The notes beneath the pieces are model-generated. The model was given only the letters and a program-made list of their open reading frames with translations, was not told the DNA's origin and ran no database searches. This document shows, piece after piece, positions 421 to 31,875 of a stretch of 64,000 bases of DNA; positions within the stretch are counted from its first letter, which is position 1, and each line of letters opens with the position of its first letter. The stretch comes from Galerina marginata (lineage: Eukaryota > Basidiomycota > Agaricomycetes > Agaricales > Galerinaceae), in contig JAECYW010000029.1 in NCBI GenBank assembly GCA_023014335.1, forward strand, positions 248,001 to 312,000, written 5' to 3'. A program made the position numbers and the translations under genes.

Positions 421-561
421 GCCAATGCGACGAGTAGCAGCAGCGACGAGGAAGATTAAGCGAAGGTCGACCGTGGTATCAACATCCACCGTGCGCCAGA
501 CCAAAAATTATTTACTCCCATTTTTGACGACGGTATTTTGATCGAGAACGGCGAGCTGATA
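421..561 (+). pseudogene. RPB1 fragment (RNA polymerase II largest subunit)
   Basis: From 466 the frame reads residues matching the RPB1 segment around INIHRAPD and FDDGILIENGEL, the conserved pore/funnel stretch after the active-site region. It is joined at about 562 to unrelated sequence. Bases 421-465 match the stretch at about 27,075-27,120, not RPB1. The same RPB1 segment is present in the longer pseudogene at about 29,660-29,760, so this is a second, much shorter broken copy. It cannot encode a polymerase subunit. Confidence 0.75.
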
Positions 562-636
562 GGGTTCAAACGCTGGTTTCCTACATGAAGCCCCTCAGAC
601 CGCAGCAGGAAAGCTAGAGTGCATTTCCAATACCCC

Positions 637-1216
637 TTTCTTCCACCATTGTGGATGGAAGCCGTTAGCACTCATTGTGCGGTCTTTGGGGTGCACTCTC
701 TTGCAGTCGGTTATTCCTGAAGTGATTTCCTTCCGAACAAACCGCTCCTTGTTCTTTCCTAGGGTAACCTGTTTTCGAGACATAAAAACTGCCAGAAACG
801 ATATAATTTCCTCCAACCTTCCAAGAGATTAGGGGAAAGAATTTTTTTGCCCGACCACGAGCTTGCTCCAAATTATTGTCGTTACAATTTCAAAGGAGCG
901 CGTTGTACACTTTGGAGATTGATGCTTAATCGCTAACGCTGAGAGGCTGCTATGGAGCCGGTTGAATCGCCAGCACGGAAACGTTGCTGTGGTCCTTCCT
1001 GGATTTCTGCAATGCCCATTGCTGTTCGAAGCTCCTTACTTTGGCCAGCAACGGGTTGTTCGACTGCACTCGCATTAGCCCAAGAAAACGGTTTCCTCAC
1101 GCTACCAAGGCGCCTTCTACGTCGTCCTTCGAGTTCATTTTGAACCCCCCACACATCGCGTACTGTAGTTGCGGAAGCCACCGACATATGCGACCCCGAC
1201 CCCCGAACGTCACCAG
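637..1216. repeat. Dispersed module pair shared with 31,235-31,700
   Basis: Bases 637-835 are closely similar to 31,235-31,440 (leader module), and 945-1216 to 31,485-31,740 (second module, beginning with an ATG that reads MEPVE followed by ARKR). The second module recurs at 6590-6960 and 26,025-26,395. No copy keeps one uninterrupted frame for the whole module, so I annotate a repeat and not a gene. It lies just downstream of an RPB1 fragment here and at 31.2 kb, so the two loci share a joined ancestor. Confidence 0.7.
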
Positions 1217-1540
1217 TTTTCATGTTGTCGACGACGATGCTTCTCTCAAATTCATCCATGTCAATATTCCCACTGCTCAGCCTGTCAAATCGAGAGCACA
1301 AAGAAAACATACATACATCGCAGACTTGAGGGTTTTGGTATGCTTGAGAGCCGCTGTCTGGGCATCATGACAAGTGCTGTCATTTCGTCAGTACGTGTGC
1401 TATGACCAACCGTTTTGAATGCCCACATTTCACCACTTTCAAGAGCATATACTCGAGTACACGAGGATATCTTCGCCTCTGTTGATGAAGCGAGCAGATC
1501 GGGGAATCGCCTCGTTCAACTCTGCAGTCCACAAATACAA
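1217..1540 (-). pseudogene. Inverted partial copy of the WD40 gene
   Basis: The minus strand matches 10,150-10,470 of the WD40 gene, including parts of at least three exons and the introns between them; the stretch reading GNIDMDEFER is recognisable. Because introns are retained this is a genomic duplication. The copy lacks both ends of the gene and is not expected to be functional. Bases 1541-1734, between it and the next gene, show nothing I can name. Confidence 0.8.
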
Positions 1541-1734
1541 TGTATTGTAGTCATAGGTGGCAAAGTCGTACCTTTTGCGACAAATAGATGAGTTCTATGC
1601 GTGAAATGTCGAAAGTAGACCATGCATCTGCAATAGTTGGGTTCTATTGGTGCTATAGTACAAATTGTAACATAGTAAGTACACTTGACAGCCCAAAGAT
1701 AGGTTTGTTGGGCGTAATAAAGACGTTAAATTTG

Positions 1735-3851
1735 CTAGACTTCCTGGCTAAATAACTCGCTGAGTCCATAATCGGAAATCTCATCCAAGCCATAAGCATC
1801 TGCTTCCCAGCCCTTTGCCTCAAGAGGTTGGAAGCTGCCGGTGAGTAGTTGTTGTCCGGGGTTCATCTCCAAAAATCTGCATTCAGTGAGGTTGTGCACG
1901 TACTGTAGAATGAACGGGTTGGTCATACCTTATTGGGCCGCGAATATACTTTCTCGACTCAGAAGCTACGAGCTCTCTTTCGCTCTCGTTACAAGGAGAG
2001 GGACATGCCTTTATAGATAATAAGAGGAGGCAGCCAGTGCTGAGTAAGGCTTGACTTACTGGACAGAACTCTTCTATGCATGCACGCATAGAACCAGCGT
2101 AAAGCGGATGGCGGTGGAGCCGGCGGCCTGCCTCAGTTAGTGGCCACGATCCTGATGATACTAGTGCATTCATAAAAATGTATTATCCACTCGAGATACA
2201 CCCACCGTTCAAACGATAGTTCTAGAAAAGTTGGTAAGCAGCTCAGAAAAATGAACAACAGATAAGAGGATATTACAATCAATGTGACTGATGTCGCTAT
2301 CTTTTCTGCAGTCCAGGTAGGGCCATACGGGACAACCCATGCGATATCGTAGTCACAGGATTGGAAGTTGATGTCGAGCCGGCGCCCAGGACCTGCGCAT
2401 GCGGCACCTCGGAGAAGGACCTTTTTCCACGGATAATATAGGACATTTCTGCGCTCAGCATTACTAAAGTACAGCTCTTCAAGAACTAATAATCGTGCCA
2501 GGCCGCTCGGACGGTTGGGTGACGGATGGCAAAAAATCTACAACGTCTAAGTTCAATGCATAAACGAGTTAGCTACTCAACATACCGAAGGGTCAATTCT
2601 TGGGCGTGAAAGCGAAGGGAGGTAGACCTCATAACCCCGTTCCGCGTATTTTGCTAAACGTACTTCATATGAGGGAGACCTTCTTGTCAGGTCTACGGTG
2701 TTGGCCTGCCTAATGCAGGATGCCAAAGCTCTTGGATTGGTCCATACACGCTGACCTGAATGCAACACAATAACTTACTTAGAGCTGCATTTGAATTTAA
2801 AGTGGGATTCTCACCGTCATAGGCAAAACAAGCCGAGTCAATATCAAAACCTGCTAATACTTCTGCGGGAGAGAGGTATAGCCTCAAGACAATTTGCACA
2901 GGTCTGGCTGGGAAGAGTGCTGTTGATAAAGTGAGAAATCTGGAAGTAATTTTAATAAAGGGCATACTGTGAATGGAGACTACGTTTGGTTTGCGGACGC
3001 AAATCACTTTGAAAGGAAGTGTGTTGCAGATGGCATGGTATATTTCGACCATTTTTGCCTTTGCCTACGATGAAGAATATTAGCTGGGCATCCTGGAGAA
3101 AAAAACCTACAGATCAATTTACCTGAGTTGCGTTCAACCCGTAAAGGAAAAGATCGATGTCGGAGGCCGCAAAAACAGATTGATATCGGTTGTTTCTTGC
3201 TTTAGTGGTGGAATTGCCGTCGAAAGGTTCGAGACATGCCAGTACAGCGCCTCCAGCAGCGATAACATTGTTCCAGGATATGTTTGAGAGTATTTTGTGG
3301 GTGAAGATGTTCCAGTTCCGTTGAAACTCGCCTAAAGTAGGAACAATAGACAGAGTTCCTGGGGTTTTTCGAAGATGAGATGCCAACGGCATGATGAAAT
3401 GCTCGTCATGATATTCGCCAAATGGCCTTCCGATTACTTTCCAGATGTCTTGATCCTGGGCGAAGACGTCAAAAAGGCCGACAAAAGGATCTACGAGGTC
3501 AGAGCGCCTTTGTTCGCTAGCAAAAATCCTTCTGAGGTTTTCTTCATGGCGAATTGCAGTCTGTAAGAAGGGGTCTAAACGTTGACCGATTGGGAGAGCA
3601 AGAACGGCTTCAAGAAATAGCTGCACATTGCCATCTGGGTTGAGATGGGCTTCTTGTGCCCCGTCGACAACTCTGGAATTCGATATGGGGAAGAGTTGTC
3701 GCAAGCACGCCAAAAATAGTTGAAAGCACATGTTGGTTGAATCAAGTAAGTCGAAGACGCAGAGGACGGCGGAACAGTTGAATGCGTAGCAGCTCTGCAA
3801 ACCCCAGTCATTAAAAGGCTTTTTGTGTTGTCTACTTGTGGTGCAGACCAA
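1735..3851 (-). CDS. Conserved large fungal protein with SDIDLFLYGL motif
   Basis: A multi-exon minus-strand gene. Exons I can join in frame: 3851-3123 (contains AAGGAVLA and SDIDLFLYGL), 3064 down to about 2815 with one internal intron, 2755-2586 (contains NTVDLTRRSPSYEVRLAKYA), about 2513 down to 2210 (contains GLARLLVLEEL), about 2163-2060, 2008-1929 and 1876-1735, ending in a TAG. Splice sites are GT-AG and phases agree. The order of motifs matches a conserved fungal family that databases often label ankyrin-repeat or hypothetical protein, from my memory of the family. I see no ankyrin repeats in the part present. The 5' end is unresolved: there is no ATG at the upstream limit of the first frame, so an upstream exon or a 5' truncation is likely. 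The glycine-pair followed by D-x-D is reminiscent of nucleotidyltransferases, which is inference only. Confidence 0.75.
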
Positions 3852-4430
3852 ATAAAATCATTCCACGGCCAGGGTCGAGGGAGGGATAAGCACAGAACGT
3901 AAGGAGTTCTGGGACAGAACAGTGAGAAAGTGCCTACGACGCCAACAGTTGTGAGTCATGACAAGCGCCGTGAAGGATGAGAAGGTGGTAGAACCGAACA
4001 AAGGGAAGTCACCGAAGGTGGTGAGTCACAAAAAGCGCCGCTTTTAGCGCCTAGAGAAACACAAACAAAATAGTATGAGTCGTTTCGTGGTGGGACTGGT
4101 CAGCGACGACGGGGGACTTTCTCCGCCTAATTTAGGCTAGGTGTATTTGGGCGGTGCCAAACTGCTGCGTACTGCTGCCAGTAAATGAATCGTGCGAGTC
4201 ACCTTTTGACGAGCGCGCGTCGGGTGATAAATATCGATAAATCCCGAGAGTGCGTCGGTCGTTCTCCAACGATGGGCGTGAGAGTCGCCCTTGACAAGGA
4301 GCGTCGGGCGATGACTCCAGCGCTTCTGCAGGAACATGGTCAATTGAATCTCGTGGGAACGAAGCATGATCCCTACGCCCACAAAATGATTACAACCGAG
4401 TTTCTTTCGCTCCTACATATTCCCTTAGGG
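3852..4430. other. Intergenic stretch, short degenerate repeats
   Basis: No gene recognised. The words GTGAGTCA and AAGCGCCG are repeated around 3950-4060. An 88-residue open frame at 4185-4451 has no recognisable domain and I do not call it. Confidence 0.4.
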
Positions 4431-4830
4431 ACAAACTACCGTGACCGGTGACCCCCGATGGCGAATCCGAGTTGACGACTTATCTGAAACTTCTGACTCG
4501 GAACAGCAAGGGTCAGGTAGAAACAGCATCGAGGTCTTGTCGCCGGACTCAGTAAGAAAATGAAAAGTTCACTCCAGCTCACACCGTTTCTTTGGCGGGC
4601 CCTTACAAAGAAGAGCTACAGCAAGACTCTACAAGGGTCAAGAGTCAACAGCATCTGCCAAATGGCGTCTTCCTTCCTGCATTATTTACCAAACCTCTAC
4701 AAAGAGCACTGGCTAGGTCGGGCCATCCTGAAAATTCATTTGAAGGCCGCTTGCGAAAACTTTCGACGAAGAGACAGCAAGGGACGACCAAGAAGAGAGT
4801 GTTGTCAGGAGCGTAGTTGAATCTGACTCG
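4431..4830 (+). pseudogene. Decayed copy of the 7778-8569 gene
   Basis: Residues LSETSDSEQQ at about 4480-4510 and then pieces equivalent to VNSICQM, the EEHW stretch and AASENFRR of the intact gene at 7778-8569 appear in order, but in different frames and without usable splice sites. Similarity continues downstream to about 5000. The orientation is opposite to the intact copy. It is a broken relic. Confidence 0.7.
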
Positions 4831-5890
4831 AGCCGCAAGGGAATAATTGATAGAATGAGCAATATAATCAAGTCATATAGCGTCGACCCGCGCCAAACGG
4901 ATTACATAAATGAGTGCGTCAGATTCAGCGCTCGCAAGCGCGTCAGGCACATTATAAAATGAACCCGTCTCGCTCTGAATCAGGTACGGAATGGACAAAC
5001 CTACCAGCTACACAATGGTGCGTCACCCTAACTCTGATGACAACCCAGGCGATTCCTTGTCCGAAGACATTGAGATGAACCAGGTCAACAACCTCTTGGA
5101 TCCGGTAATTTCACCACCAAAGCTTTCAGTACGCCCTATTCATCGAACCGGCTTTTGCAGGACGAAACTGAAAACCTCGCAACTCATTGAGCCCTCATGG
5201 CTATCCTGGATGCAAGGGAATGGACGATGAGAGGTACGAGAAAGGATTAAATGAGTTGCTTGTTGCAGGCGAAAAGAAAAGGGTCACTCACAGGGTCGTC
5301 CACGCGGCCCAGCTCAAACATCAGCGACTTTCACGGGCCGTTGCAAAGAGCAGAATCGTCACATTGGCTACCGGCAGTATAACGAAGAAACAATAGGCGA
5401 AATAAAGATAGTCATTCCGCCAGGACTGGTGACGTCGCTGACTCGATGTCGACCTTGACAATATAATGAGGATACGGGGAGTGATATGCGACCTTTATGA
5501 CTTGGGAGAAATGTTGCTGGGAGATAAATCAAATACTGCTCCTGAAGGTCTAGACATTGAATCACGTCCCCCGAACTTGGCTCGCAAGCCTGGTCCAGCA
5601 GAAATGAGAGATACAGAGTCGACGACGTAGTAGTACTTGCTGCAAAGCCCTGCGATTTCAGTCCACCAAAGCCACCAGCGCCTTTGGGCTCCGGAATAAC
5701 TAAGTTGGTTCACCAGGCTCGACCGGGGCAGACTTCTCGGCATCCAAATTGACTTCCTCCACTAAGAATTTTGAGAAGCCGAAGCGGGGCTTCACAAGTC
5801 GCTCGAGCATCATTCAAATTGTAAGAAAACTCTAAGAAGTCGGAATCGAGTCTAATGGAGTACAGCAGCGTGTCAGCGATAGCGATTTGG
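4831..5890. other. Mosaic of relics, no intact gene
   Basis: 4831-5000 extends the similarity to the region downstream of the 7778-8569 gene. A 79-residue frame at 4991-5230 is unidentified. 5187-5450 is the inverted copy of bases 1-240. 5460-5880 contains remnants of open frames on the plus strand interrupted by stops; I cannot assign them. Confidence 0.5.
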
Positions 5891-7467
5891 CCCAGTCCGA
5901 TGCAAAACCCAGTGGCGATACCGTGCACAACCTGGATGACAGAGGAATGAGCAGCGGGTGATCGCGCTACTCCTCTGCTAATTCTACGACTCCGATCTGG
6001 TCTTGAGGCAGTGAGGCGAGGTCGAGGGTTGAGCTTGACATGCTTGACATGCAAATCGTGATGTTTAACTCTGTTTGGCTTTCCAAACTCCCGGTTACCC
6101 GTCGGAGCTCTTCTTCTAGATCTGCGCGTCTTGACCACTCCTTTCGCCAGATGGTGCAAGCAAGTGGTTCTGCGTCGTTGTCTATTGGCTCTGAAGGGCC
6201 TGCTCCTTTCACCTTGGTGCGAGCTAGCAAAAAACCCCTCAGACTTCCCGTTACACATCCCATAGGCGAACCCAAATTATTGTCCTTACGCCGTAGGCCG
6301 ATGACGCGGTAAGTGGACTGTGTGCCTCTCAGCGTGCGCTTATTCATCTTCAAACAGGGCCTTACGACCACTTTGAACAAATTGCGCAGCGAGATTTGTC
6401 TGCAAAGCCCAAATTGTTAGTGCTCTCTATTCATTTTTTTCAAAACTCAACTAAGCTTCGAATGTCTCTGAATCAAGTGGTTATATGCGGCGCCTTCGTC
6501 GTTGAACTGCCATTGCGAGCAGTGCAGACTTCATTCTGGAGTTTCCAGAACGACGCTTAGTCCACCAACGCTGAGACGCTGCCGTAGATCTACCTATGGA
6601 GCCGGTTGAATCGCTAGCACGGAAACGTCGCTGTGGTCCTTCCCCCCATCTGGATTGACTACACTTTATGGACTCTCGATTTCTGCAATGCTCATTGCCG
6701 TTTGAACCCCTTCACTCTGGCTAACAACAGAACTTGGACTGCACTCGTATTGCCATTAGCTCAAGCACCCGGTTTCATGTCGTTCATTTCGAACTCCCAA
6801 CATATCGCGTGCCCGCATGTGCTACCCCAACACCCGACGTCATGCTGCTCAAGAGAACGCCTTCGATTAAATCTGGTGGACCTAACCTTGACCTAGCACA
6901 TCCGGAGCCTCATGGTGCTGGTAGCTCAGGAGGGCTGGTTCCGCAGGGTCAGGAACCTCATGCATGCTGAATCTGATTTCGCTGCAAATCGTCTCTTCAA
7001 TGGCTTCCTCTTCCTCAACTACTGTTTACCGCCTGGGTCGGCTATATCATACTAGACCGTCGTCATCGACGACGACCGTGCCATCGTGCCTTCCAGCAGT
7101 GACCGGCGACTCTAATTCATCCTCTGCGAGTGGTCAACAGCAACTTTGATTCTTCGTCTCCCTGTCTGTGGTTACTCAGATCATCGACTCGGAGAGTCAA
7201 ACTGTATCAACGGCAGTTGAGTTTGGAGCAGTCGAATGCAACCTTCTGGGGAGTTATCCAATTCAGAATATTCGCATTTGGTCATCCTTCCCACAGATAC
7301 GTGGCTATAGGCTGAATATCTTCCTTCAGCAATTTGCCGCTTTGTGTGATGCAATTGACGAAGAAACTTACGTGCCGGAAAATTGCATCTCCGTCATATA
7401 ACCTACCCAGACGTTCTAAAGGTCTCACTCCGATCTCCTTGCCCTAGCTTCGAACGACATCCTAACG
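5885..7467. repeat. Long direct repeat, copy 1 (copy 2 at 25,320-26,898)
   Basis: The offset to copy 2 is a constant 19,435 bases from about 5890 to 7225, so there are no indels across that stretch, and all shared open frames translate identically between about 5967 and 7149. Both ends are more divergent: a few substitutions before 5920 and many substitutions and indels after 7225. The repeat includes the MEPVE module (6590-6960). Frames at 6964-7149 and 7168-7401 look protein-like but I do not recognise them. I infer fragments of an unidentified gene inside a mobile or duplicated segment. Confidence 0.9.
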
Positions 7468-7777
7468 GAATATATTCGGCACGTCTGGGTGAAGACGGAA
7501 TCAGAAACCCTCGCAGGCGGTCCAAGCTCTCTCTATTTTGTTGTTTTCCTTCATTTCTCCCTCCCAACTTTGTATGTTTGCTACGGCTAAAGAGGGGGTC
7601 GATACTCTGTGAAGACCTCGCCGCCGAAGTGGAACGAGGCACAGCTTGTGATCAGCGTGTGTAGTGTGTAACCATCGAGTCACCATTTTGCGCTGGACTT
7701 TATTATTATATTGCTCATTCGAATTCTCTTCATCAGATCTACTATCAATCACTCCTCGCTGCTCGAGTCAAAACCCA
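7468..7777. other. Intergenic, downstream of 7778-8569 gene
   Basis: No gene recognised. The part nearest 7777 matches the region after the relic copy at about 4820-4900. Confidence 0.4.
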
Positions 7778-8569
7778 CTACGCTGCTGACAACACTCTCG
7801 TCTTGGTCCCCCCTTGGTGCTTCTCTTCACGTCGAAAATTCTCAGAAGCCGCCTTCAAATGGAGCTTCAGGATGGCCCGAACTGGCCAGTGCTCTTCGTA
7901 CTTGTCAACGATTGGATGGTTTTGGGCAACCTGAGCTTTGGTAAATAACGCAGGAAGAAAGACAACAGCGCAAAAAAAAGGAGACCATTTGGCAGATGCT
8001 GTTGACCTTCGCAGAGTCTTGTTTGCTGTAGCTCTTGGTCCTATCTAACTGCATATCAGCCATCTTCTTTATAAGCGCCTGCCAAGGGAAAGTGTGTGTG
8101 TGAGTCGCAGTTATTGGGTTAGAATGAAGTAGACGCTTACTGTGACTTTTCGTATTTCTTCCTTACCCCAGGCATTAAGGGCTTCGTCGATGCTGTATCC
8201 GCCTGACTTTGGTCGCCCAGGTTCACCGGAAGGCTTAGGAATCTTCTTCATTGAAGCGACCAACACTTGCTGTTCCGAATCGGAAGTTTCAGATAGTTCG
8301 GTTAATTCGGATTCGCCGTCGTCGTGGTCGGTAGGATCGGAAACAGAAACGCCGTCGACTGAAGGAGTAAGTTCCCGGCTCGGTGGCGCTCCTTCACCCT
8401 CTTTCAGTCCTCTGGGTCCGAGGACGAAATGAGTCCTGGGTGTGATTACTGAAGGAGGCGGAATCGCATTAGGGGCGAAAGAGATTCGGCTGGTAATTAG
8501 TGGGCGGTGTCTAGAGATCATTGAAAGGATGCTGGATGTTCTGCCTTTCCGCGAGATTTCATTGACCAT
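7778..8569 (-). CDS. Multicopy Agaricomycete protein with IPKPSGEPGRP motif
   Basis: Three exons on the minus strand: 8569-8141, 8078-7986 and 7930-7778. They give 143, 31 and 50 residues with all junctions in phase 0, and a TAG stop at 7778-7780. The first intron has a strong GTAAGC donor; the second donor (GTCTCC) is weak. The protein has an acidic serine-rich N-terminal half (around residues 75-100, SETSDSEQ), then KIPKPSGEPGRPKSGGYS, then a helical C-terminal half ending in a basic stretch. This layout matches a family present in many copies in mushroom genomes and of unknown function, from my memory. A decayed opposite-strand copy lies at 4431-4830, so the family is part of the local mosaic. 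Confidence 0.7.
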
Positions 8570-9541
8570 TTATGTTCCTGCGGAACCGCTGAGAAACACA
8601 AACTACAGGGTTGCGAAGTCGAGTCATGCATCGCCCGACCCGCTTGTCAAGGGCCACGATTCATCGGGATTGCCTGTTGGAGATGGTTGCAATCTGTTGA
8701 GTAAAGTCCCGCAATTCATAGTCTTGCCCAAGGACGCCGGCCTCCGGGGCCCAAACAGCACGAAACAGACGAGCTGTTTGGTTGGCCCGCTGAGCCCGAA
8801 AACACGGCGAGCCCCAATCAACGCCAACTACATCCTGCCCACGCCTGTGGACAAAGTCTCAAACTACACTTGATTGCTAGCGTGGAGGCACTGCCGCGAA
8901 TCCTGTTAAGTACTCTCAGTGAATTGTTTTGTTAGCTTCGAATTTTCCTTTTCAACTTCCCTGTGGGCGGAGGTCGAGTAGCCGAAGGGGATTGACGGAA
9001 TCTAATGCCGGATTTCCGTGGCTGGTGGTTGTCAAGCGTTAGCGTACATCCTATTCAACACACCCACCACTTTCTGTATCTTATGGAATCGCTGTTACGT
9101 CCCTCGAGACATGCGCTTTCCGATTGTCGAGGACGCTGTTTCGGGTATCGCTTGACGCGTTCTGCGCCCTCGTCAGGGCCGGCTTACGTGTATGACTTAG
9201 GATTCCCATGGTGTCGCGAGTCATAAATGGCCCAACTACCCCCTCGTTAAGTCTTCAAGAGTGGCCCTCACGGTGTTCATTTCAGGTTTCACCGTCGCAG
9301 ATAGCGGACCCAGTGCTGCGCTCGAGGTGACTCGACTTATGGTATAAAATGCAGATTGGTCCAAGACGCAAACTGCGCGGTGCTAATCGCTTGATTAATA
9401 ACCCAACAGAACAGACGATTTTGGAATGGAAATGTTCTTGCAACGATACTGGAATCGCCTTTTTCTTCCTGCCCATGTTCGTTTCGACCTTTGTCACCGT
9501 TTGACTTATTTGACTGACATGACTTCACATCTCCTCGACAG
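8570..9541. other. Intergenic stretch
   Basis: Contains open frames up to 143 residues (8442-8873, plus) that overlap the first exon of the minus-strand gene and look like shadows. I see no recognisable domain. The end of this stretch should hold the promoter and first short exon of the WD40 gene. Confidence 0.4.
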
Positions 9542-11343
9542 AAATACCGCCTCGTTGCGAGAATGGAGAGCCACCACGGCCCAATCAATTGCTTCGCAGT
9601 TGTCGGAGACGCAGAAATGCTCGCTAGTGGCGGTATGCCCTTTGCTGGTTTATAGTGCCGAGCTATGACTTCACGCTGCTTAGGTGACGACGAGACCGTT
9701 CGAATTTGGGACCTCACTTCCTTCGAGTTGAGAGAAACTCTGATTGATAAGGCAGGCCATTGGGGTCAAGTCACTTGTTTGCACTGGATACGTTTAGATG
9801 GTAATATATCCGGCAGTGGTCTGTTGTCCGTCGGGACGGGCAGAGGGCGTGTTGTAATCTACAAGCGGCAAAAAAGAAGGGTGTGTCCTCTCAATAGCCG
9901 GCAATAGTCTTTCGGGCCAACTAATTACTCTCACTTTTTACTAGGACCGTTTTGTGGAAATATCAGATACCCAAGTTTTTAATTCCGGCGACAGTGTTGA
10001 AACCTTAGCCTTCGATCCCATTAATTTCCGTCTCGTCATGACCAGCCACCACGGAAAAATTAAGATGTCTCGACTTGTTGGAGAAGGTAACGAATCTCTA
10101 CATGGCTGGTTCTTCTTACTGATCTCTTCTATATTAAGATATATCGCCTTTGTGGACTGTAGAGTTGAACGAGGCGATTCCCCGATCTGCTGGCTTCATC
10201 AACAAAGGCGAAGATATCCTCGTGTATGCTCTTGAAAGTGGTGAAATGTGAGCGTTCAAAACGGTTGGTCATAGCACACGTACTGACGAAATGACAGCAC
10301 TTGTCGTGATGCCCAGACAGCGGCTCTCAAGCATACCAAAACCCTCAAGTCTGCAATGTATGTATGTTTTCTTCTTTGTGCTCTCTCAATTTGACTGGCT
10401 GAGCAGTGGGAATATCGACATGGATGAATTTGAGAGAAACATCGTCGTCGACAACATGAAAACTGGTTACGACGTATATTCGATCCATCGCTCCACACCT
10501 CTCCATACTTTCGACGTTCCGAATAGCAGAAATTTCGTTAGAATGGTCGTGTTTGGGGAGAAGGGTACCGTGATTGTCGGCGGCAGTGACCATGGCAAAG
10601 TGTATCTCTTCGATCTGAAAGCGTCTCAGCAACCTGTGCAAACCTTTATGCATGGAAAACCAACAACTCTCTTACAGGCGACTATAGTAAGACACTTTTA
10701 GTATTTTTCCGAATCGGTCGATAGATTTTTTTTTCTGTAGACAGCAAGCACGGAGAATCGGCACCTCATTATGACAGGCAGCTCTGACGACAAATCGTCC
10801 ATCTGCGTATGGGAAAAGCCGGCAAGTCAATATCTATGTAGTGTTTATCCGTTCGATTGATCTGTAACGGATAGACGCAGCGTGCGCTACTGCAGAAGAG
10901 GCGCGAGACCGAGAGGCGAGGAGAAGTTGGCCTGGTGGTTGCTCTTCTGCTTTTGCACCTGGTTTTGGTGGTTGTCTCTCCAGCGTGGTTTCAAGCATTG
11001 AAAAGTTTATGCAAGGTACTACCAGATGTCATTCTTTTGGATGGAACTGACACACTTTCTCCAGGATTTGACCCAGATACCCACAAAGGCGCGATCTGTT
11101 GCGGAGAAGGTGGTAGTCGACCCATTCAAGACCGCACTAGGTGAAGAACCAACTCAAGGAGCCGCTGAAGGCTCTTTGGTGATTTCCCGCGAAGTTCTGA
11201 TGCAACTTCCTCATGACGTTTTGATGCAGCTTGGGCAGCAGACTGCAAGCAGTATTCGTACTGCACGACCACTGCCCCTGAATATTTTGCGGGACTCTGA
11301 GGAGGATGCCGTTGAATCTGTCGCCAAACTGGTACCGGAGTAG
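9542..11343 (+). CDS. WD40-repeat protein with C-terminal membrane helix
   Basis: Exons: 9542-9632, 9684-9880, 9945-10086, 10139-10247, 10298-10357, 10407-10686, 10741-10821, 10875-11015 and 11065-11343 (TAG stop). From the ATG at 9563 this gives 452 residues with every phase consistent; the frame is open upstream to a good acceptor at 9541, so a short first exon (possibly ATG-TTC near 9487) may precede it. WD40 signs include DDETVRIWDL, the later GSDHGKVYLFDL and a SSICVWE blade end. After the propeller comes a charged stretch and a hydrophobic helix (residues LVVALLLLHLVLVVV, encoded at about 10,930-10,975), then a polar tail of about 110 residues. The intron after 10,821 is GC-AG (GCAAGT). 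Likely role: a propeller scaffold anchored to a membrane; partner unknown. A partial inverted copy lies at 1217-1540. Confidence 0.85.
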
Positions 11344-12745: not shown

Positions 12746-12854
12746 AGCAAATTCCCTGCTGCTCCCCTACCCCCCTTCGATAGGTAGGTCAGAGCGAGGC
12801 GCAGGTGCTTGCTTGCTTGAGTGACTCGATAATCACAGTTGTCCATCAAACACC

Positions 12855-16620: not shown

Positions 16621-16631
16621 GTCAGTCAAAC

Positions 16632-21145: not shown

Positions 21146-22850
21146 GTGTACCATATACATTATCATGCTCGTTTTATTCTGTTTTTCGTAAGTCGCGCTA
21201 CTGCTTTCGCCTCGCGATATACTGATTTTCGGTCTCGTTAGTTGATGTGTATATGGTCGGCCCAATGTGTGCAACATGTTCTCAAGCCGTCAGTTAACTT
21301 CGCCCTGAGCACACGACTGACATCTATGAACTAAGCAAATTGGCGATGTCCTGACCGAACCCATTTTTTTGACGGATGTCAAGTCATGACGTAGCATGGA
21401 CCTTTGTGAATGTAGCATTTTTTGAGAACAAACTTGGCATTTAAATAGTCCTAAACTAACCCTGTTATTTCATACACCCAACTTAGCACCGGCATTTGAT
21501 CTCTTAGTCAAGCCCTGAACAACCTTGGAGAAAGCATATTGTATCTCAGAATGAAGCAATAGATTGACTCCCAACCTAGCTAATCTCCCGAGTCCTGACT
21601 AACCCCAGCTTTGAGTACTGATTGAACCAGCACTTCACTGGTCATGAGTCATGACTGTGCAACACTTTTGAGTATCGACTGAGTACTGACTGAACCTGAA
21701 AACCTGATATATTGAAGTCTTGACTAAGCATCCCTTTTGACACAAACTAGCTCTGACCGAGCATGACTTTGGAATGAGAACTTACTACTGACTGAACCCA
21801 ATATATTAATCAACTCACAGTCTTAACCAAGCATCATTTTTGATACAAAATAGCTCTGACCTAGCATGACTTCGGATTCTCGGAAGAATAAATACTTACT
21901 AGGTGGTGAGAGGCGGCAGTGATCAGTGATGGGGGAAAGGGAGACTGACCAAACCAAAAATATCTATCAACTCAAAGTCTTGACCGAGCATTGCTTTTGA
22001 TACAAGCCAGCTCTGACTGAGCATGACTTTGGAACGAGTACTTACTACTGAGGCCTTGACTGGGGGGTTGTTTGAACGAGACGCTGCGATGAGGTGGGGG
22101 TTAGAGGAGGTGATTTCCGTTGTTTACTTTGTGATGAGTGTGGTTGACGCCCCGCCTTTACTTGAACAGCCTACAGGTAGGGATTGTCATGGGTATGGTG
22201 TCCCGTGTGGGTTGGGGTGCGGGTTTCACCAGGGTACGGGTACAGGTAGGCAATTTTGTACCCTACGAAAACCCGTACCCGTGACACGGGTTGGTGGGTC
22301 AGGCGCTGAGTTCGAACTGGGCGCTTAATCGGCTTCTGCACGAAGCTTTTATTACCAGAGGCATTTTTGAAATGCCTCCAGTAAAAATGCCTCCAGTAAA
22401 ACAAGGTCTGCTAAGGCGGCTCTCCGAAATCCCACCAAGCAGACCACATGAACCATTGACCACACCTGCACAATATTTGCGATAGTAAGCTGCAGGTTGA
22501 GAGTGACAATAATGAAGGTTAGATTAGTACTTACCAATGCAAGGCTCAGACTCTGTCAGGAGCTAAGCAATTCAAAAAGAAGGGTCAAGACTCAAATTAG
22601 TACTCACACTGGTCTTGACAAAGTCAGGCTCCGTCATGAGTTGAGAAACATACAAAAGTATGGCGAGGTAAGTACTTGTTGTGGCCGCATAAATGAAGGC
22701 TCCATCACGAGCTAAGCAATTCAAAAAGAAGGATCAGATCAGTACTTACAGTCTTGACAAAGTTAGGCTCCGTCATGAGTTGAGAAACATATAGAATTAT
22801 AGCGAGGTTAGTACTTGTTATGGCCGCAAAAATGAGGGGTGCTCAGGACT
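21146..22850. repeat. Gene-free region with degenerate tandem repeats
   Basis: Three imperfect units sharing AGTCTTGACCGAGCAT and CTCTGACCGAGCATGACTT begin near 21,714, 21,815 and 21,977. 22,185-22,310 has a cluster of GGGTACGGG and its complement, with partial inverted symmetry. 22,350-22,400 has GAGGCATTTTT repeated and inverted. 22,560-22,850 is a tandem duplication of about 148 bp (AGCAATTCAAAAAGAAGG at 22,564 and 22,712). Confidence 0.75.
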
Positions 22851-23894
22851 CATAAGCCAAAACATCAAGGGCTCAGCTTGAACTTCGGACGTCTGTAACA
22901 GTGGTTACATTAGCACTTGAATGTATACAGAAAAAGTGGGCTAGATCAAGACTACACAAAATAGGAATCTGTGCTCCGTCTGTAGGGCCAAAGATGCTTC
23001 GTTTGAAAAAAGTTGGGCTAGGTCAGTACATAAGATGGGGTAGATTTGTGGTTCAGTTTTGTGTGGTTTGTGGTTGAGAATATGCTTGGTCTTTATATTA
23101 AAAAGTCGGGGTAGATAGGTAATAACAAAACTGGTGCCATCTGGATGGATGACAAGGTGCTACGTTCGTACAAGGGCAAGTGCTCGATTCTGACGAGCGA
23201 GGAGGCGAGGAGCGAAGTTGTACTAGGGACTTTGGACGAGAATGGCCGCGACGTAGACCAACGTTTCGTCTGTTCAGTGTTAAAGAGAACTCATCAGGCG
23301 GCGGGGTGGTCTTTTACCACCAAGCGGAACATTACGTAATCGTCCGTTTTTGGGAATCACGGGATCGCGTCTGTGCGCCCTCAGAGTCGCGGAATCCGCG
23401 ATGGAACTCGACGCGTTTTGTTTACTCTCGAGGCCTTTTTGGGTCCTAACCCCTCAAAGGTAGGGTACTAGATTGTCTACCATTGGTTGTAGGTTGTTAG
23501 GCTGATAGGAAGTTGAAATTTATCTTTATTCAATTCATTCTTGGGGTGACTCTGCTGCAGGCAGCTGAAAGGTGATTCAAGTTTAAAAATCACATATCAC
23601 CGGTATCAAATGTGTAGAATGAAGTCAAATAAAAATTTCCCTATCTCAAAAGGGAATGACTGATTTTAAAACCGGATTTTATTTTCAAAAATCGAAATTT
23701 TTACATCTACTCGAAGGATCAGCTGCATACGGTGGTCGCCTCCTCGCGCATCTTTGATGCTCGGTTTGTACTCTGCGAAATGCTTGGTCAGCGGCCAGCA
23801 GGTGGTTTTGCGACTTCAGAGTGTGTTACCCCCGGCCCGGGCATGATGGCAGTTCTGCTGACCTGTCAAACATAACTTGAACCTAACTCATCTG
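22851..23894. other. Intergenic, unresolved
   Basis: A 64-residue frame at 23,145-23,339 ends with residues slightly resembling the C-terminal AARWFFTT stretch of the next gene, so a decayed paralogue is possible. The rest is AT-rich with nothing recognised. Confidence 0.35.
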
Positions 23895-24485
23895 ATGTGC
23901 AAAGACATCGCTTACATCAAAGCCAAAATACCTCGGAAACGATTCCACATTCCAATCGAGTCCAAACCGAAATTCAACATCTACCATTCACTGCATTTGA
24001 GACCAACGCAGATCAAGGACGTCGGAGGAATTGGCGACTTATTCCTTGTTTTTCAAAACGGTCATGACATTATTGTCTTTTGGAAGACAGCCACAAAGGA
24101 TGGGAATGAGGTCTGGCGAGAAGTAGGAGCAAATCGCCAGGAAATTGGACATCCCATCCATAAGAACTTAATACTCCGAGGAGACGGTTGTCACAACTGC
24201 CTCCCTCATTGGTGCCCGGGTGCTTATGCCAGCGATGATTTGTACCAAGCTGCAAGGTGGTTTTTCACCACTTTTCGTCTTTGCTCTCCTTTGCCACTGG
24301 CAATTAGGTAAGTCTTACTGTCTACATCTCGCAAAATACTGAATTCTTATATTAATACTTCCAGCTCTGGAACTTCTTCTGTGCCTGTTGACCTCACCAG
24401 GGAGTCATGTGAGCTAATTGACCTCACAAAAGAGTAAGTCATAACTGCATACCAGTTTTACAGTTTCTTGACCTCATTCAGTTAG
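23895..24485 (+). CDS. Hypothetical 161-residue protein, three exons
   Basis: Exons 23,895-24,307, 24,365-24,433 and 24,482-24,485, joined by two GT-AG introns of 57 and 48 nt, give 162 codons including the TAG stop at 24,483-24,485. The frame is open a little upstream of the ATG, so an earlier exon cannot be excluded. The protein is mixed basic and aromatic, with no signal peptide or membrane helix that I can see, and ends in a polar tail (LTRESCELIDLTKD). No domain recognised. It directly borders the inverted-arm structure with RPB1 fragments. Confidence 0.5.
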
Positions 24486-24515
24486 GCTGGAGGTGATGAG
24501 GCATGTAGCTATACT

Positions 24516-24935
24516 CTCCAAAATCTTCTTTACTTTCATGATGAAACCTTTATAGCACACAATATCGATCAGTGCCCACTTGAGAAGTTATAGTAAGCAA
24601 CACACCTGGATGGAAAATAGGCCTCGCCAACTCGATATTACCAAAAATGACCAGGACATTCCGGACATCCCTTCGCCGCAGGTTTGACACTTGAAATTCC
24701 GGTCGATAGTGCCCAAACCTGGGCCCATCAGACCACTTGAGTAGCTTTGTCCATGACCTCTGGATGTTTGATTTTGGACGGAGATGGCTTTCTATGAGTC
24801 AGAAAAGGCTGTTGGTAAGCATTTCTAGGGCCGTGATGAAATTCATAAAAGAAAACGCACGATCTCCTCCGGTGAAAGAATACCAAACTGAACCTCTGGA
24901 AAGGGGTTAGATCAATGACTAGAACAAAGAACAAA
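24516..24935 (-). pseudogene. RPB1 N-terminal fragment (inverted copy)
   Basis: The minus strand shows the RPB1 start region: QFGILSPEEI equivalent, then SKIKHPEVMDKAT, LGTIDRNFKCQTCGEGM, then GFIMKVKKILESI. Stops and frameshifts separate the pieces. KCQTCGEGM matches the first zinc-binding block better than the corresponding stretch in the plus-strand copy at 27.6 kb, so the two copies decayed independently. Confidence 0.8.
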
Positions 24936-25234
24936 TAGAATAGTACCATAATTTAAGTTCATGGCTATGGTCTTCGGTGAAGCAGCGTCTCAGCGACCAG
25001 CGGCGTCGCGATGGTGGGGGTATCGCAGACTTTAGCTGGGCATCCTGCTGCTTCAACATCGATTCGCTGGCGCAGGGTCAGACCTTGATTTCCGCTAAAA
25101 GTTCGAAAGACCTATTCTCCTCAATTCAATGTCATTGCCCGAGATTCCAATTTTAGTGATTGTCGCGGTGTTGTCATCGACCTTTGTCTAATCTCCCTCG
25201 TCGCTGCTGCTACTGGTCGCATTGGCTTCTCGAA

Positions 25235-25325
25235 TGCCCTTGTGAGGAAGTCAATGACGCCGAGCATTTCCCTCCTGAAGCGACCTATGACTTCCCAGTC
25301 GCGATGCAGATATCGATCGATTTGG
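25235..25325 (+). pseudogene. Clathrin heavy chain fragment
   Basis: The plus strand reads HFPPEATYDFPVAMQIS, matching the clathrin heavy chain segment with FPPE and DFPVAMQ near the end of the N-terminal propeller. Upstream residues are not clearly clathrin and downstream it passes into the long repeat. It lies in the left inverted arm; the mirrored version is in the right arm. Confidence 0.65.
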
Positions 25326-26898
25326 CCCAGGCCGATACGAAACCCAGTGGCGATACCGTGCACAACCTGGATGACAGAGGAATGAGCAGCGGGTGATCGC
25401 GCTACTCCTCTGCTAATTCTACGACTCCGATCTGGTCTTGAGGCAGTGAGGCGAGGTCGAGGGTTGAGCTTGACATGCTTGACATGCAAATCGTGATGTT
25501 TAACTCTGTTTGGCTTTCCAAACTCCCGGTTACCCGTCGGAGCTCTTCTTCTAGATCTGCGCGTCTTGACCACTCCTTTCGCCAGATGGTGCAAGCAAGT
25601 GGTTCTGCGTCGTTGTCTATTGGCTCTGAAGGGCCTGCTCCTTTCACCTTGGTGCGAGCTAGCAAAAAACCCCTCAGACTTCCCGTTACACATCCCATAG
25701 GCGAACCCAAATTATTGTCCTTACGCCGTAGGCCGATGACGCGGTAAGTGGACTGTGTGCCTCTCAGCGTGCGCTTATTCATCTTCAAACAGGGCCTTAC
25801 GACCACTTTGAACAAATTGCGCAGCGAGATTTGTCTGCAAAGCCCAAATTGTTAGTGCTCTCTATTCATTTTTTTCAAAACTCAACTAAGCTTCGAATGT
25901 CTCTGAATCAAGTGGTTATATGCGGCGCCTTCGTCGTTGAACTGCCATTGCGAGCAGTGCAGACTTCATTCTGGAGTTTCCAGAACGACGCTTAGTCCAC
26001 CAACGCTGAGACGCTGCCGTAGATCTACCTATGGAGCCGGTTGAATCGCTAGCACGGAAACGTCGCTGTGGTCCTTCCCCCCATCTGGATTGACTACACT
26101 TTATGGACTCTCGATTTCTGCAATGCTCATTGCCGTTTGAACCCCTTCACTCTGGCTAACAACAGAACTTGGACTGCACTCGTATTGCCATTAGCTCAAG
26201 CACCCGGTTTCATGTCGTTCATTTCGAACTCCCAACATATCGCGTGCCCGCATGTGCTACCCCAACACCCGACGTCATGCTGCTCAAGAGAACGCCTTCG
26301 ATTAAATCTGGTGGACCTAACCTTGACCTAGCACATCCGGAGCCTCATGGTGCTGGTAGCTCAGGAGGGCTGGTTCCGCAGGGTCAGGAACCTCATGCAT
26401 GCTGAATCTGATTTCGCTGCAAATCGTCTCTTCAATGGCTTCCTCTTCCTCAACTACTGTTTACCGCCTGGGTCGGCTATATCATACTAGACCGTCGTCA
26501 TCGACGACGACCGTGCCATCGTGCCTTCCAGCAGTGACCGGCGACTCTAATTCATCCTCTGCGAGTGGTCAACAGCAACTTTGACTCTTCGTCTCCCTGT
26601 CTGTGGTTACTCAGATCATCGACTCGGAGAGTCAAACTGTATCAACGGCAGTTGAGTTTGAAGCAGTCGAATGCAACCTTCTGAGGAGGTTATTCCAATT
26701 CGGAATATTCTTATTCTTAGTTAATCATCCTTCCCACAAATACGTGGTCTGTGGGCTGAATGTCTTCCTTCAGCAATTTGCCGCTTCGTGTGATACAATT
26801 GACGAAGAAACTTACGTGCCGGAAAATTGCCTACCCAGAGGTTGTAAAGGTCTCACTCCGATCTCCTCGCCCTAGCTTGGAACGACAACCTAACGGAA
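25320..26898. repeat. Long direct repeat, copy 2 (copy 1 at 5885-7467)
   Basis: Same orientation as copy 1 at a constant offset of 19,435 bases through about 26,660, then diverging with indels to 26,898. The shared frames (for example 25,402-25,815 minus, 25,475-25,747 plus, 26,399-26,584 plus) have identical translations. Unlike copy 1, this copy is the spacer between two inverted arms. Confidence 0.9.
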
Positions 26899-26943
26899 TC
26901 TGTGATGGCTCTATCTGATCTTCAATGTTACAATGTCGACTGC

Positions 26944-27788
26944 ATCGCCACTGGGTTTCGCATCGGCCTGGGCCAAATCGATCGATATCTGCATCGCGAC
27001 TGGGAAGTCATAGGTCGCTTCAGGAGGGAAATGCTCGGCGTCATTGACTTGCTCACAAGGGCATTCGAGAAGTCAATGCGACCAGTAGCAGCAGCGACGA
27101 GGGAGATTAGGCGAAGGTCGATGACAACACCGCGACAATCACTAAAATTGGAATCTCGGGCAATGACATTGAATTGAGGAGAACAAGACCTTTCGAACTT
27201 TTAGCGGAAATCAAGGTCTGACCCTGCGCCAGCGAATCGATGTTGAAGCAGCAGGATGCCCAGCTAAAGTCTGCGATACCCCCACCATCGCGACGCCGCT
27301 GGTCGCTGAGACGCTGCTTCACCGAAGACCATAGTCATGTACTTATCCTGATTCCTGAGTACTATTCTATTTGTTCTTTGTTCTTTGTTCTAGTCATTGA
27401 TCTAACCCCTTTCCAGAGGTTCAGTTTGGTATTCTTTCACCGGAGGAGATCGTGCGTTTTCTTTTATGAATTTCATCACGGCCCTAGAAATGCTTACAAA
27501 CAGCCTTTTCTGACTCATAGCAAGCCATCTCCGTTGCCAAAATCAAACATCCAGAGGACATGGACGAAGCTACTCAGGTGGACTGATGGACCCAGGTTTG
27601 GGCACTATCGACCGGAATTTCAAGTGAGGGATGTCGGAATATCCTGGTCATGTTGGTTATATCGAGTTGGCGAGGCCTGTGTTCCATCCAGGTGTGTTGC
27701 TTACTGCAATTGCTCAAGTGGGCACTGATCGATATTGTGTGCTATAAAGGTTTCCTCATGCGAGTAAAGAAGATTTTGGAGAGTATAT
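26944..27788 (+). repeat. Right arm of the large inverted repeat
   Basis: Reverse complement of 24,516-25,364. It runs directly into the longer RPB1 pseudogene, so the left arm looks like an inverted duplicate of the start of this locus. Confidence 0.88.
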
Positions 27789-30700
27789 GTGTCAATTGCG
27801 GAAAGCTGAAAGCCGACACCGTGAGTTGCATGTTTACTTTCCTCTACTTGTTTCGCACCCCACCATCTCAATTTTCTGGGGCTCTCTCCACATTTCATCG
27901 GGAACCCCAAACCCCTTGACAATGACAATTGAAGGCATTCTTTCGCCCATGACGGGGGGGTCATGTGGTGCGTGTTTCGGTCGCTTGATCGCTGTGTCGA
28001 CCCATTGCACCCGTCGCGGCGTACGGTTGGCCACGAGGCTGTGTGGTGAAATGGGGGCTGAACGAGTAGTGCGGAAAAAAAAATAAACATACGTGTACTG
28101 TCAAGGGTCATGTGTTGTATAGATGGAATTTGGCCAACCGCTCTCTACTGTGACGCAGTACCGGATGCGTGTGAGAAGGCCCTGCACTGTTGCTCGATGT
28201 CTCTTGCCCCCTGTATTGTTGAATTTGTTGCCTCAGATATCGTATCCCGTAGACACCTCATGCTGATGCTTTTATTTGCATATCCGACTTGAAACCCTCA
28301 TGGACTTCTCTTTCCACTTCATGTTTTCGTGTATTAAGTCGGACCCGAATTTTGCGGAGAAGATTCGTCATATCCGTGATCCCAAGAACCGGATGGCGGC
28401 TGTTTGGGCTCATTATAAGACGAAGACGATTTGCGAGCCTGACGAGCCCAAGGAAGAAGGTGCGGATCCAGAGGTTGAGGAGGCAAAAAAGGGTGACGGC
28501 GGCTGTGGGCACAGTCCACCTCAGGTCAGGAAGGAAGGCCTGAAGCTTTTCGTGCAGTACAAGAAGGCGGAGGATGACGATGACGTTAGTATTGTTTTCG
28601 TTTTACCGTATAGCATTAACTTACCTTCATACAGGAGGTTAAGTCATGGCAGCATGATAAGAGGCTCGTCACCCCTTCTAAGGTTTACACTGTCTTCAAA
28701 AAGATGTCGGACCACGGGTTTCATCTCCTGGGCCTCTCAGACGAGTACGCCAGACCGGAATGGATCTGGACGAAGTTGGTGTACCGGACCCGATAGCCAT
28801 GAACTTAACTTGTCCTGAGAGAGGTACCATTCTATTTACTCTTCGGTCTAGTCTTTGATCTAACCCCTTTCCAGTAACACTGCATATATTCAAGAACTGG
28901 TTGGAAACCGCCCGACGACATACCCTGGCGCAAGATATGTAGTTCGGGACACCAGAAAACGAATCAATCTTCGTTATAACAAGCGTGCTGACGCTTTCCT
29001 TCATTATGGCTGGATCGTCGAACGGCACCTCAAGGACGGAGAGTAAGCACTATCCAGGTTTTTTTTGAGACTACGGATATTAATCTCATTTGTAGTTTTG
29101 TATTATTCAATCGTCAACCCTCTCTGCATAAGATGAGTATGATGGGCTCAGCCATTGCGTCAAGCTTATGCCCTATTCCAGTCAGTGTCCAGGGGTTCGT
29201 GACTTTGTTTCCTTTGCTAATATTGTCACCATAGCCTTCCGCCTGAACCTGTCGGTGTCAGTTGACTGCAACAGCCACTTTGGCATGTTAGTCATGATGT
29301 TTAGAACACCGCCTTACAATGCCGCCTTCGACGGTGATGAAATGACATGCAGTACGTCTTCTTGTAAACATGTTTGTTGTGGAGATCTTCAAAATAATCC
29401 TTAGTGTGCATGTTTAAGTTGGGTCCTGCGTTGCTAACTGCAAAACACATATTATTTCTCCCCAAGCCCACAAACCCGTCATGGTATTGTGCAAGATACT
29501 TTGCAGCATTTGAAAGTTCATGCTTGCGATACCTTCTTGGACTGTAATCACGTGCAAACATCCTCTTGTGGGTCCTTGAATGGCACGGCGCCATTCTGAT
29601 TTCTGCCGTCCTCAAGCCGAAGACTCTGTGGGCAGGAAAGCAAATCCTCAGCTTGACCATTCCCCGTGGCAAGTATCAACATCCACCGTGCGCCAGACCC
29701 AAAATCGTTTACTCTCATTTTTGACGACGGTGTTTTGATCGAGAACGGCGAGCTGATATTTGGAATCGTCGAGAAGAAAAGACCGTTGGAGCGTCGCAGG
29801 GTGGTTTAGTGCCTGTCATGTTCTGTGAGAAGGGACCCGACGCCACTCGCCAATTGTTTACTGGCATCCAGATGGTCGATAATTTCTGGCTCTTCCATAA
29901 CGACTTCAGCATTGACGATACTATTGCCGACTCTGCAACTACGTCATACATCACCCAACACATTGCCGCGTGGAAGGCGAACGTGGCTCAGATGATTAAC
30001 GATGCTATTCATGACTGTATGAAAGCTGTGTCTGGTATGACGATCCGCGAATCCTTTGAGAATTTGGTGGAACGGCAGCTCAACTTGGCCCGTGACATGT
30101 GTGGTCGATATGCTCAAAAGCACTTCAAGGAGGACAGCAATGTAAAGCAGATCGTGGTTGACGGTTCAAAGGGTTCATTCATTAAAATTTCGCAAATGTC
30201 TGTCTGTGTTGGATAGCAGTCTGCCGAAGGTCGTCGTAACCCATTCGGCTTCCGTCATCGCATCCTACCGCACTTCACTAAAGACGACCGCAGTCCAGAG
30301 TCGCGTGGATTTGTCGAGAATTCATATCTTCGCGGCCTGACTCCCAAGGAATTCTTCTTCCATGCTATGGCAGGTTGTGAAGGTCTCATTGATACTGCTG
30401 TCAAGACCGCTGAAACTGGTCTATATCCAACGTCGACTAGTAAAAGCTCTGGAGGACGTCATGGTTTGCTACGACGGCATGGTCCGAAATTCCCTCGGCG
30501 ATCTCATCCAGTTTGTATATGGTGAAGACGGAGTAGACAGTGCCTTCATTGAGAAGCAAACTATCAAGACTTTTCACCTCAACGACAGGGAATTCGAACA
30601 TAATTACCGTCTAGATGTCGCAGACCCAGCCGGCGGCTTCCTCCCCAGTGTCTTGTGGGTTGGCATTGACGACAGTTCCTCAAACTCCTAGTGCAGCTGA

Positions 30701-31236
30701 ATGAGGAATATGCCCGCTTGGTGGAAGATCGCCAACTCCTTTGCGAGTTTGTCTTCCCCCGAGTACCCACTAAACAGCCCACTATCTTCCTGTCAATCTC
30801 CACTGCATTGTCCAGAACGCTATCCAGATCTTCCACGTCAATCCTCGCAAACCAAGTGACCTCAACCTGGCCTACATAGTCGATACTGTGCATGAGCTTG
30901 GCAAACAACTGGTTGTCGTCCGTGGCGATGACCATCTCAGCAAGGAGGCCCAGGATAACTCGACACTAACCTTCAGGATGCTTCCTTTGCGTCCCGCCGC
31001 ATTTTGGAGAAGTTCCATCTAACACGAGAAGCTTTTGATTGGGTGATTGGCGAGGTGAGGTGGGGACAAAGTTTAACCAATCAATTGTACCCCATGTGAG
31101 TTGTGTGGCGCACTGGCTGCCCAGTCAATTGGAGAATCGGCCACCCAAATGACGCCCAACACTTTCCGTTATGCTGGTGTCTCCAGTAAGAACGTCACCC
31201 TTGGTGTACCGCGTTCGAAGGAAGTTATCCATGTTG
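27395..31236 (+). pseudogene. Long RPB1 pseudogene (RNA polymerase II largest subunit)
   Basis: Ordered RPB1 landmarks: QFGILSPEEI (27,424), KIKHPEDMDEAT (27,545), FLMRVKKILESICVNCGKL (27,750), DPNFAEKIRHIRDPKNRMAA (28,345), DEYARPEW (28,740), a large internal deletion, [24 protein letters not shown] and [15 protein letters not shown] (28,935), RQPSLHKMSMM (29,115), YNAAFDGDEM (29,315), [11 protein letters not shown] (29,620), [43 protein letters not shown] (30,520) and [10 protein letters not shown] (31,205). Family introns are retained (for example 28,588-28,635 and 29,044-29,095), so it is a genomic copy. Frameshifts, stops, a roughly 500-bp insertion between 27,830 and 28,338 and the missing block after ARPEW kill it. 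The active-site NADFDGD loop reads N-A-A-F-D-G-D. The C-terminal heptad repeats are absent; similarity stops at 31,236. Confidence 0.93.
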
Positions 31237-31875
31237 CCCCTTTCTTCCACCATTGTGGATGGAAGCTGTTAGCACTCATTGTGCGGTCTTTGGGGTGCAC
31301 TCTCTTGCAGTCGGTTATTCCTGAAGTGATTCCCTTCCAAAAAAACCACTTCTTGTTCTTTCCTAGCAGTTTTGCATATGTGCGGTGACCTGTTTTCAAG
31401 ACATAAAAATTGCCAGAAACGATATAATTTCCTCCGGCCCTCAAAGAGATTAGTGGAAGGGTTGATGCTTAATACGCTAACGCTGAGAGGCTACTATGGA
31501 GCCGGTTGAATTGCTAGCACGGAAACGTTGCTGTGGCCCTTCCTGGATTTCTACATTGCCCGTTGCCGTTCTAAGCTCATTACTTTGGCTGGCAACGGGT
31601 TGTTCGACTGCACTCGCATGGCCATTAGCTCAACGGTTTCCTCACGCTACCAAGGCGCCTTCTACGTCGTCCTTCGAGGTCATATCGCGTACGGTAGTTG
31701 CGGAAGCCACCGACATATGCGACCCCGACCCCCAAACGTCATGCTGCTGAAGGGAACGCTTCCGATCAAGCCTGGTGGACCTAACCTTGAACTAGCATAT
31801 CCGGAGCCTGATGGTGCTGGTAGCTTAGGAGGACTGGTTTCGCAGGGCCATGAAGCAGGAGGAAGCTCATGACCG
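31235..31875. repeat. Leader module plus MEPVE module, fourth locus
   Basis: Joined directly to the broken end of the RPB1 pseudogene. 31,235-31,440 matches 637-835; 31,485-31,875 matches 945-1216 and, in part, 6590-6960 and 26,025-26,395. Frames after the ATG at 31,496 differ among copies. Confidence 0.75.

Follow-up and report, generated by a model that had tools for sequence, protein, structure and literature searches.

Fungal EnSpm/CACTA transposons are described as having 5'-CAC..GTG-3' ends and 3-bp target duplications (PMC12730594), and EnSpm elements that have been termed giant reach 15.2 kb in Ectocarpus (PMC12477816) and, in the case of a red alga, 16-20 kb (PMC6431247), alongside an active KDZ element of 31.7 kb (PMC12477816, PMC6431247); for Pack-TIRs (TIR, terminal inverted repeat), template switching has been reported (PMC8277862). 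We have analysed a stretch of 64,000 nucleotides from Galerina marginata (the window; positions 248001-312000 of contig JAECYW010000029.1, hereafter C22), which carries a mosaic of host-gene fragments. This mosaic forms the right-hand part of an insertion of 264,287 bp, C22:22093-286379, which, to judge from sequence, is probably (at a probability of roughly 0.75) one giant Pack-CACTA-type DNA transposon, inserted on one haplotype only.

The assembly comprises 69.3 Mb in 43 contigs; C22 is 670,646 bp long, ends on the right in TTAGGG repeats, and was read over C22:1-312000. By sequence similarity, intact RPB1 is 92% identical to its best match with an organism name, from Tricholomella constricta (Agaricales), with other hits of up to 93%, and the host is accordingly probably a member of Agaricales. 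The insertion is bounded by a pair of inverted 508-bp TIRs, C22:22093-22600 and 285872-286379, which are 85% identical and have no further match anywhere else in C22:1-312000. When aligned to two normal-sized relatives on contigs C7 and C4, the unit starts with CACTCCCGCGACCCATCTATTTTGACGGGG at C22:22093 and ends at C22:286379, such that its termini take the form 5'-CACT...AGTG-3' (CACTCCCGCG.../...CGCGGGAGTG), as is characteristic of CACTA/EnSpm elements. The border features that fall within the window are as follows:

1..38379, no strand: the window's share of the 264,287-bp element, from self-comparison, module map and border reading
37872..38379, minus strand: right TIR (508 bp) of the putative giant CACTA-type element, ending ...CGGGAGTG; partner at C22:22093-22600
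38380..38382, no strand: right copy of the 3-bp target-site duplication CCT; left copy at C22:22090-22092
38383..38407, no strand: right end (25 bp) of a small outer insert, the split being read from sequence
38408..38415, no strand: the outer insert's 8-bp duplication GACTATGA; left copy at C22:21327-21334

The left part of the outer insert occupies C22:21335-22089 (755 bp), and the giant element is nested inside it. Its ends match at 15 of 21 bases in inverted orientation; it may be hAT-like. A total match of at least 8 bp was seen in 0.0115% of 200,000 random left-right junction pairs. That GACTATGA could be the giant element's own target duplication was considered and dropped: the C7 and C4 relatives have 3-bp duplications, and the 8-bp repeat is therefore assigned to the outer insert.

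The unoccupied site is found on contig C26. Two haplotypes are at least partly assembled, given that intact RPB1 is present on both C12 and C7, with identical family scores, and that C26 runs parallel to C22. C26:17200-20238 aligns to C22:16608-21334 in three pieces (92.7, 94.8 and 97.1% identity), and C26:20231 onward aligns to C22:286408 onward, the right flank being 95% identical over 5.3 kb from window position 38408; leftward, C26 runs into the left flank of C22 and not into the array. Because C26 joins both C22 flanks directly, C22:21335-286407 is missing from it as one block, and the duplication present at both borders on C22 has a single counterpart, GAGTATGA, at the empty site. Just beyond the right border, in the flank shared with C26, is a HET-domain gene (PF06985, E 7e-26; window 39929-41146).

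The class assignment draws on the relatives and on the interior. The TIR query matches inverted pairs at C7:323.8-336.3 kb and C4:2022.5-2031.7 kb (68-71% identity), together with three further single sites on C42 and C4 (39 of 133 candidates scored). The C7 relative is 12,492 bp with TGT on both sides, and the C4 relative 9,139 bp with ACT on both sides; read directly, both ends of each begin CACTGCTG[T/C]GGCCGGACTA. Inside the giant element, though outside the window, C22:152-155 kb encodes a CACTA-type transposase (PF02992, E 3.2e-14 in Pfam): full-length homologues, of 762 and 787 aa, can be aligned to C22:152034-154992, interrupted twice by short gaps that are possibly introns or frame changes, and further coding fragments lie at C22:36-38, 43, 48-50, 84-85, 132-133, 146, 161, 239 and 280 kb. 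The unit therefore combines TIRs, a target duplication of the 2-3 bp expected of CACTA/EnSpm elements and a PF02992-type transposase with, as in Pack-type elements, RPB1, MDN1, carboxylase and WD40 fragments between the TIRs. A Pack-type DNA transposon is supported by the CACTA-type ends, the TIRs, the 3-bp duplication, the C26 empty site and the CACTA-type transposase inside.

The first-pass annotation, made from the window alone, had placed a mosaic at 421-31875 and considered its agent unknown, with no transposase visible. The mosaic is real, but its right border is at window 38379 and it reaches far to the left of the window; likewise, the window holds no intact transposase gene, but it does hold a 182-bp fragment of one. 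The anonymity of the agent reflected the limits of the window. The pieces within the window, with RPB1 numbered according to the intact locus on C12, are as follows:

471..561, plus strand: RPB1 fragment, intact-locus 3484-3574
562..1210, plus strand: LEAD module, found directly after RPB1 in several copies; the other window copy is split in two within 31237-31739
1701..4660, plus strand: degenerate copy from a host gene family with multiple members; closest relatives at C21:660 kb and C43:2.953 Mb, 86% over the first part
5191..7471, plus strand: CORE module; second window copy at 25318-26899
9401..11870, plus strand: WD40-gene module, 70-71% identical to loci on C24 and C9
12005..12708, minus strand: midasin (MDN1) fragment from C2:330-332 kb, with about 1 kb of internal loss
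24510..24896, minus strand: RPB1 5' fragment, intact-locus 674-1073, in the opposite orientation to the RPB1 piece that follows
27416..31238, plus strand: RPB1 fragment with internal deletions, intact-locus 674-2076 / 2504-3155 / 3227-5065
32083..32264, plus strand: CACTA-type transposase fragment, 182 bp; near-complete gene at C22:152034-154992

Most of the earlier gene identifications held. At the DNA level, the RPB1 pieces at three places match the intact locus at C12:3.900-3.905 Mb, with protein support from PDB (RPB1, E 3.3e-42) and Pfam; the alignments extend over about 2 kb and, by our own reading, retain an intron-like stretch, in keeping with the suggestion that the copying was of DNA with introns kept. 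The midasin piece is borne out by PDB (E 9e-20) as well as by its DNA match, and the WD40 piece by PDB matches to PkwA (chain 5yzv, E 8e-11) and to designed propellers, with the Pfam WD40 families weak and below their cut-offs. The two clathrin heavy-chain pieces could not be confirmed: PF00637 has 20 matches, on C5, C21 and, for two below the cut-off, C16 and C1, and none on C22 (24 of 24 candidates scored), a test that covers this family alone and leaves the N-terminal propeller outside it. Clathrin heavy-chain repeats do occur at C21:586-651 kb, in two inverted blocks; they may form another fragment array, and a relative of the module at 1.7-4.7 kb in the window lies about 9 kb away. Elsewhere on C22, there are acetyl-CoA carboxylase pieces (PF08326, PF01039) at 73-75 kb and a NUDIX piece at 51 kb.

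The shared modules and sharp borders described earlier are also evident in a map of nine reference modules, in which RPB1, LEAD, CORE, transposase, WD40, the host gene-family copy, midasin and others recur in changing order over a self-similar region spanning approximately C22:27-280 kb. Matches of at least 500 bp within C22:1-312000 number 219 inverted and 198 direct, and the largest palindrome has arms of 31.7 kb (C22:165542-197254 and 206280-237996) that are 99.95% identical, with smaller inverted pairs besides. CORE has 49 matches genome-wide including itself, 48 of them on C22 and one on C8 (37 of 37 candidates scored); copies of at least 500 bp are 81-97% identical to the window copy. 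The match on C8 (C8:1810841-1810971) covers 131 bp at 85%, near the end of that contig. CORE was also considered as a gene and dropped, as no Pfam family scored above its cut-off among 10 open reading frames (ORFs); similarly, two ORFs scanned in the host gene-family copy gave no Pfam match. A 1129-aa open frame at C22:75333-78719 has an inverted copy of 1049 aa at 112268-115414, within a block 99.4% alike; it contains arginine/serine-rich repeats, with no Pfam match above cut-off.

The C22 copies of RPB1 all fall within intact-locus 674-5097 and contain many internal deletions. The join of RPB1 to LEAD that had been thought to recur is indeed seen at 0.6 and 31.2 kb, but the base joins differ (3574 to LEAD 1 and 5065 to LEAD 72, respectively); elsewhere, 5097 meets LEAD 1 within 0-10 bp. 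Microhomology of at least 3 bp is present at 6 of the 16 listed RPB1-RPB1 breaks versus 5.3% of random pairs, although some of these breaks go back to nearly identical copies of a single event and each overlap was scored at its best placement, which biases the count upward. At the other 10, microhomology amounts to 0-2 bp, with a few extra bases in the BLAST joins of five. This pattern fits template switching as in Pack-TIRs, without proving it. A second set of RPB1 fragments is found at C13:759-905 kb, in both orientations, 88-90% identical to intact RPB1 and 83-90% to the C22 copies. GTTAACTGTATAC (intact-locus 5087-5097) is the breakpoint of one C13 copy and of several C22 copies, and two other C13 copies have a small deletion there; this position is possibly a hotspot for breaks or insertions. 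A single capture underlying the common 5097 break on C13 and C22 was dropped as an explanation, as two further C13 copies run past 5097, as was subtelomeric exchange, given the distance of about 0.5 Mb between intact RPB1 and the end of C12.

For the decay comparison, nine C22 copies of RPB1 were used, of which that at C22:169 kb is the longest, and differences from C12 were sorted by whether they are shared with C13. In the longest copy, the unshared differences comprise 29 synonymous, 72 amino-acid and 2 stop changes, against a neutral synonymous fraction of 0.28; the RPB1 pieces thus decay without constraint. The differences confined to C13 number 35, 64 and 2, respectively. Those shared by C13 and C22 number 46, 5 and 1, the stop sitting at the 5097 break, and there is therefore no sign of a long shared pseudogene phase; dating of the capture from the three contigs was abandoned. 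In the C22:169 kb copy, C-to-T changes affect 40 of 223 CpG sites versus 42 of 742 sites elsewhere, an excess such as would be expected of methylated DNA. Judged by their sequence, the gene pieces are passengers in neutral decay, and we claim no function for them.

As to how the unit reached its present size, we tentatively favour, at a little under even odds, en-bloc movement of the CACTA transposon, its 264 kb already containing a palindromic array of pieces captured from essential genes. Where breaks arose inside the element, from failed excision or stalled forks, repair guided by microhomology would have switched template to host genes and to other copies of the element's own sequence and would thereby have captured pieces; over repeated rounds, duplications in both orientations, palindromes and deletions would have built up. 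A transposase, resident or from elsewhere, would then have acted on the ends and mobilized the unit after its enlargement. Full-size transposition is plausible, albeit unproven.

The argument turns on relative age. Unless it was lost from C26 without trace, the insertion cannot predate the divergence of the two haplotypes at its border, and the left flank has transversion divergences of 1.46% (2334 sites) and 0.74% (403 sites). Transversions amount to 7.9% between the TIRs, 5.2 and 7.3% for two old CORE pairs, and 0.8-1.9% for four others; of the duplicate length (matches of at least 300 bp), 38% is above 1.5% and 12% above 3%. As the TIRs and the oldest inner copies are more diverged than the insertion flanks, part of the content probably diversified before insertion; another part may be later. 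Our reading is of a large unit that moved and then went on changing.

The main rival, which we regard as unlikely, is that a normal-sized CACTA element inserted and grew to 264 kb in place, by repair-coupled duplication and capture, without ever moving at full size. Growth up to recent times is indicated by the 62% of duplicate length at or below 1.5% transversions and by the near-identical palindrome arms, and the insertion may be older than the near flank suggests, since the haplotypes are up to 12% apart further to the right. Against growth in place, the TIR pair and the oldest inner copies lie several-fold above the left-flank transversions that bound the age of the insertion; later import of already-diverged material would be required, yet CORE is almost confined to C22.

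Several observations weigh against a giant transposon that arrived as a unit. The yardstick taken from the flank is short, at 2,737 sites, and may be partly coding; the low divergence of most duplicate length means that much growth could postdate insertion; and TIRs that are 15.8% diverged are unusual for a recently moved unit. Haplotype identity is uneven, 95% beside the right border and then 93, 90 and 88-89% further right, where divergence nears that of some inner copies and thereby weakens the age argument. C22:19371-20920 is likewise missing from C26, and C22:1-10000 has no match there (9 of 11 candidates scored) although the contigs are parallel from 16.6 kb on; the left flank is therefore not fully collinear. 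No second copy of the 264-kb element was found, and the one described is known from assembled contigs. Finally, the resident transposase is a putative mover of these ends, and its DNA relatives (40 of 43 candidates scored) fall outside the C7 and C4 elements.

Other candidate enzymes were considered. KDZ (PF18758) has 135 matches genome-wide and none in C22:21335-286407 (146 of 146 candidates scored), and no tyrosine recombinase is present among 67 element ORFs (of 70 scanned with Pfam), no search directed at that family having been made. TIRs closing around the transposase itself (C22:144-159 kb) were also rejected: two pairs with at least 12 of 14 matches were found, the better being an inverted copy of a transposase piece, as probably are both. 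Of 11 listed loci of the window's 1.7-4.7 kb gene family outside C22, eight lie less than 80 kb from a match to the C22 transposase; this may be closer than chance, and the family is a possible cargo gene.

The palindromes, inverted repeats and microhomology, and the two orientations of the RPB1 pieces on C13, would be accounted for if a region rich in repeats had undergone ordinary segmental duplication and inversion and the transposon pieces were bystanders; this is very unlikely in view of the single block missing from C26 and of TIRs and a target duplication exactly at the ends. A chimeric or fold-back contig is slightly less probable still: near-identical palindrome arms are an assembly hazard, and the analysis covered assembled contigs, but the borders carry matching CCT and 8-bp duplications, the two halves of the palindrome are set apart by a 1.6-kb block and by 0.05-0.8% divergence, and the longer CORE copies are 81-97% identical to that in the window. 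To our knowledge, Helitrons have neither TIRs nor a target duplication. Since this unit has both, and the RPB1 borders show no Helitron-like end by eye (a systematic search for ends or for Rep/helicase was not made), capture by a Helitron is scarcely credible, even though fungal Helitrons do capture gene fragments (PMC4289320); of the agents first suggested, the Pack-type transposon is the one supported, and template-switching repair is consistent with the microhomology at some breaks.

The giant Pack-CACTA-type transposon that we propose shares with fungal CACTA/EnSpm elements its 5'-CAC..GTG-3' ends, 3-bp target duplication and CACTA-superfamily transposase (PMC12730594). There is also a weak match of the resident transposase to PF18759 (E 8.8e-6, slightly below cut-off), a likeness to the Plavaka elements of Agaricomycetes, but these end in TGT..ACA or CATCA..TGATG, rather than CACT..AGTG (PMC12730594). 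Titles and abstract openings of the open-licence literature searched mention no CACTA element of this size; in the literature covered, cut-and-paste transposons with TIRs reach at most tens of kb, apart from the virus-fused Teratorn, and the EnSpm elements called giant are 15.2 and 16-20 kb (PMC12477816, PMC6431247) as against 264 kb here. If correct, the en-bloc move would exceed by more than 10-fold the size given for those elements, and an element with TIRs could keep growing by self-templated repair and still transpose. A haplotype-specific insertion with readable duplications, an empty site and datable copies makes both the size limit and the route of capture testable in a mushroom. Pack-TIRs (PMC8277862) and Tgm-Express (PMC1947982) similarly carry host gene fragments between TIRs, with microhomology at the breaks, but the C22 element differs in its larger size and in its palindromic arrays, in which the same fragments recur tens of times. 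Among other giant mobile units, Starships (42-606 kb, including the basidiomycete Tremella; PMC13066641) employ a tyrosine recombinase, and Teratorn (180 kb; PMC5601938) is a piggyBac-herpesvirus fusion, whereas the element on C22 carries the ends, the target duplication and the transposase of the CACTA type.

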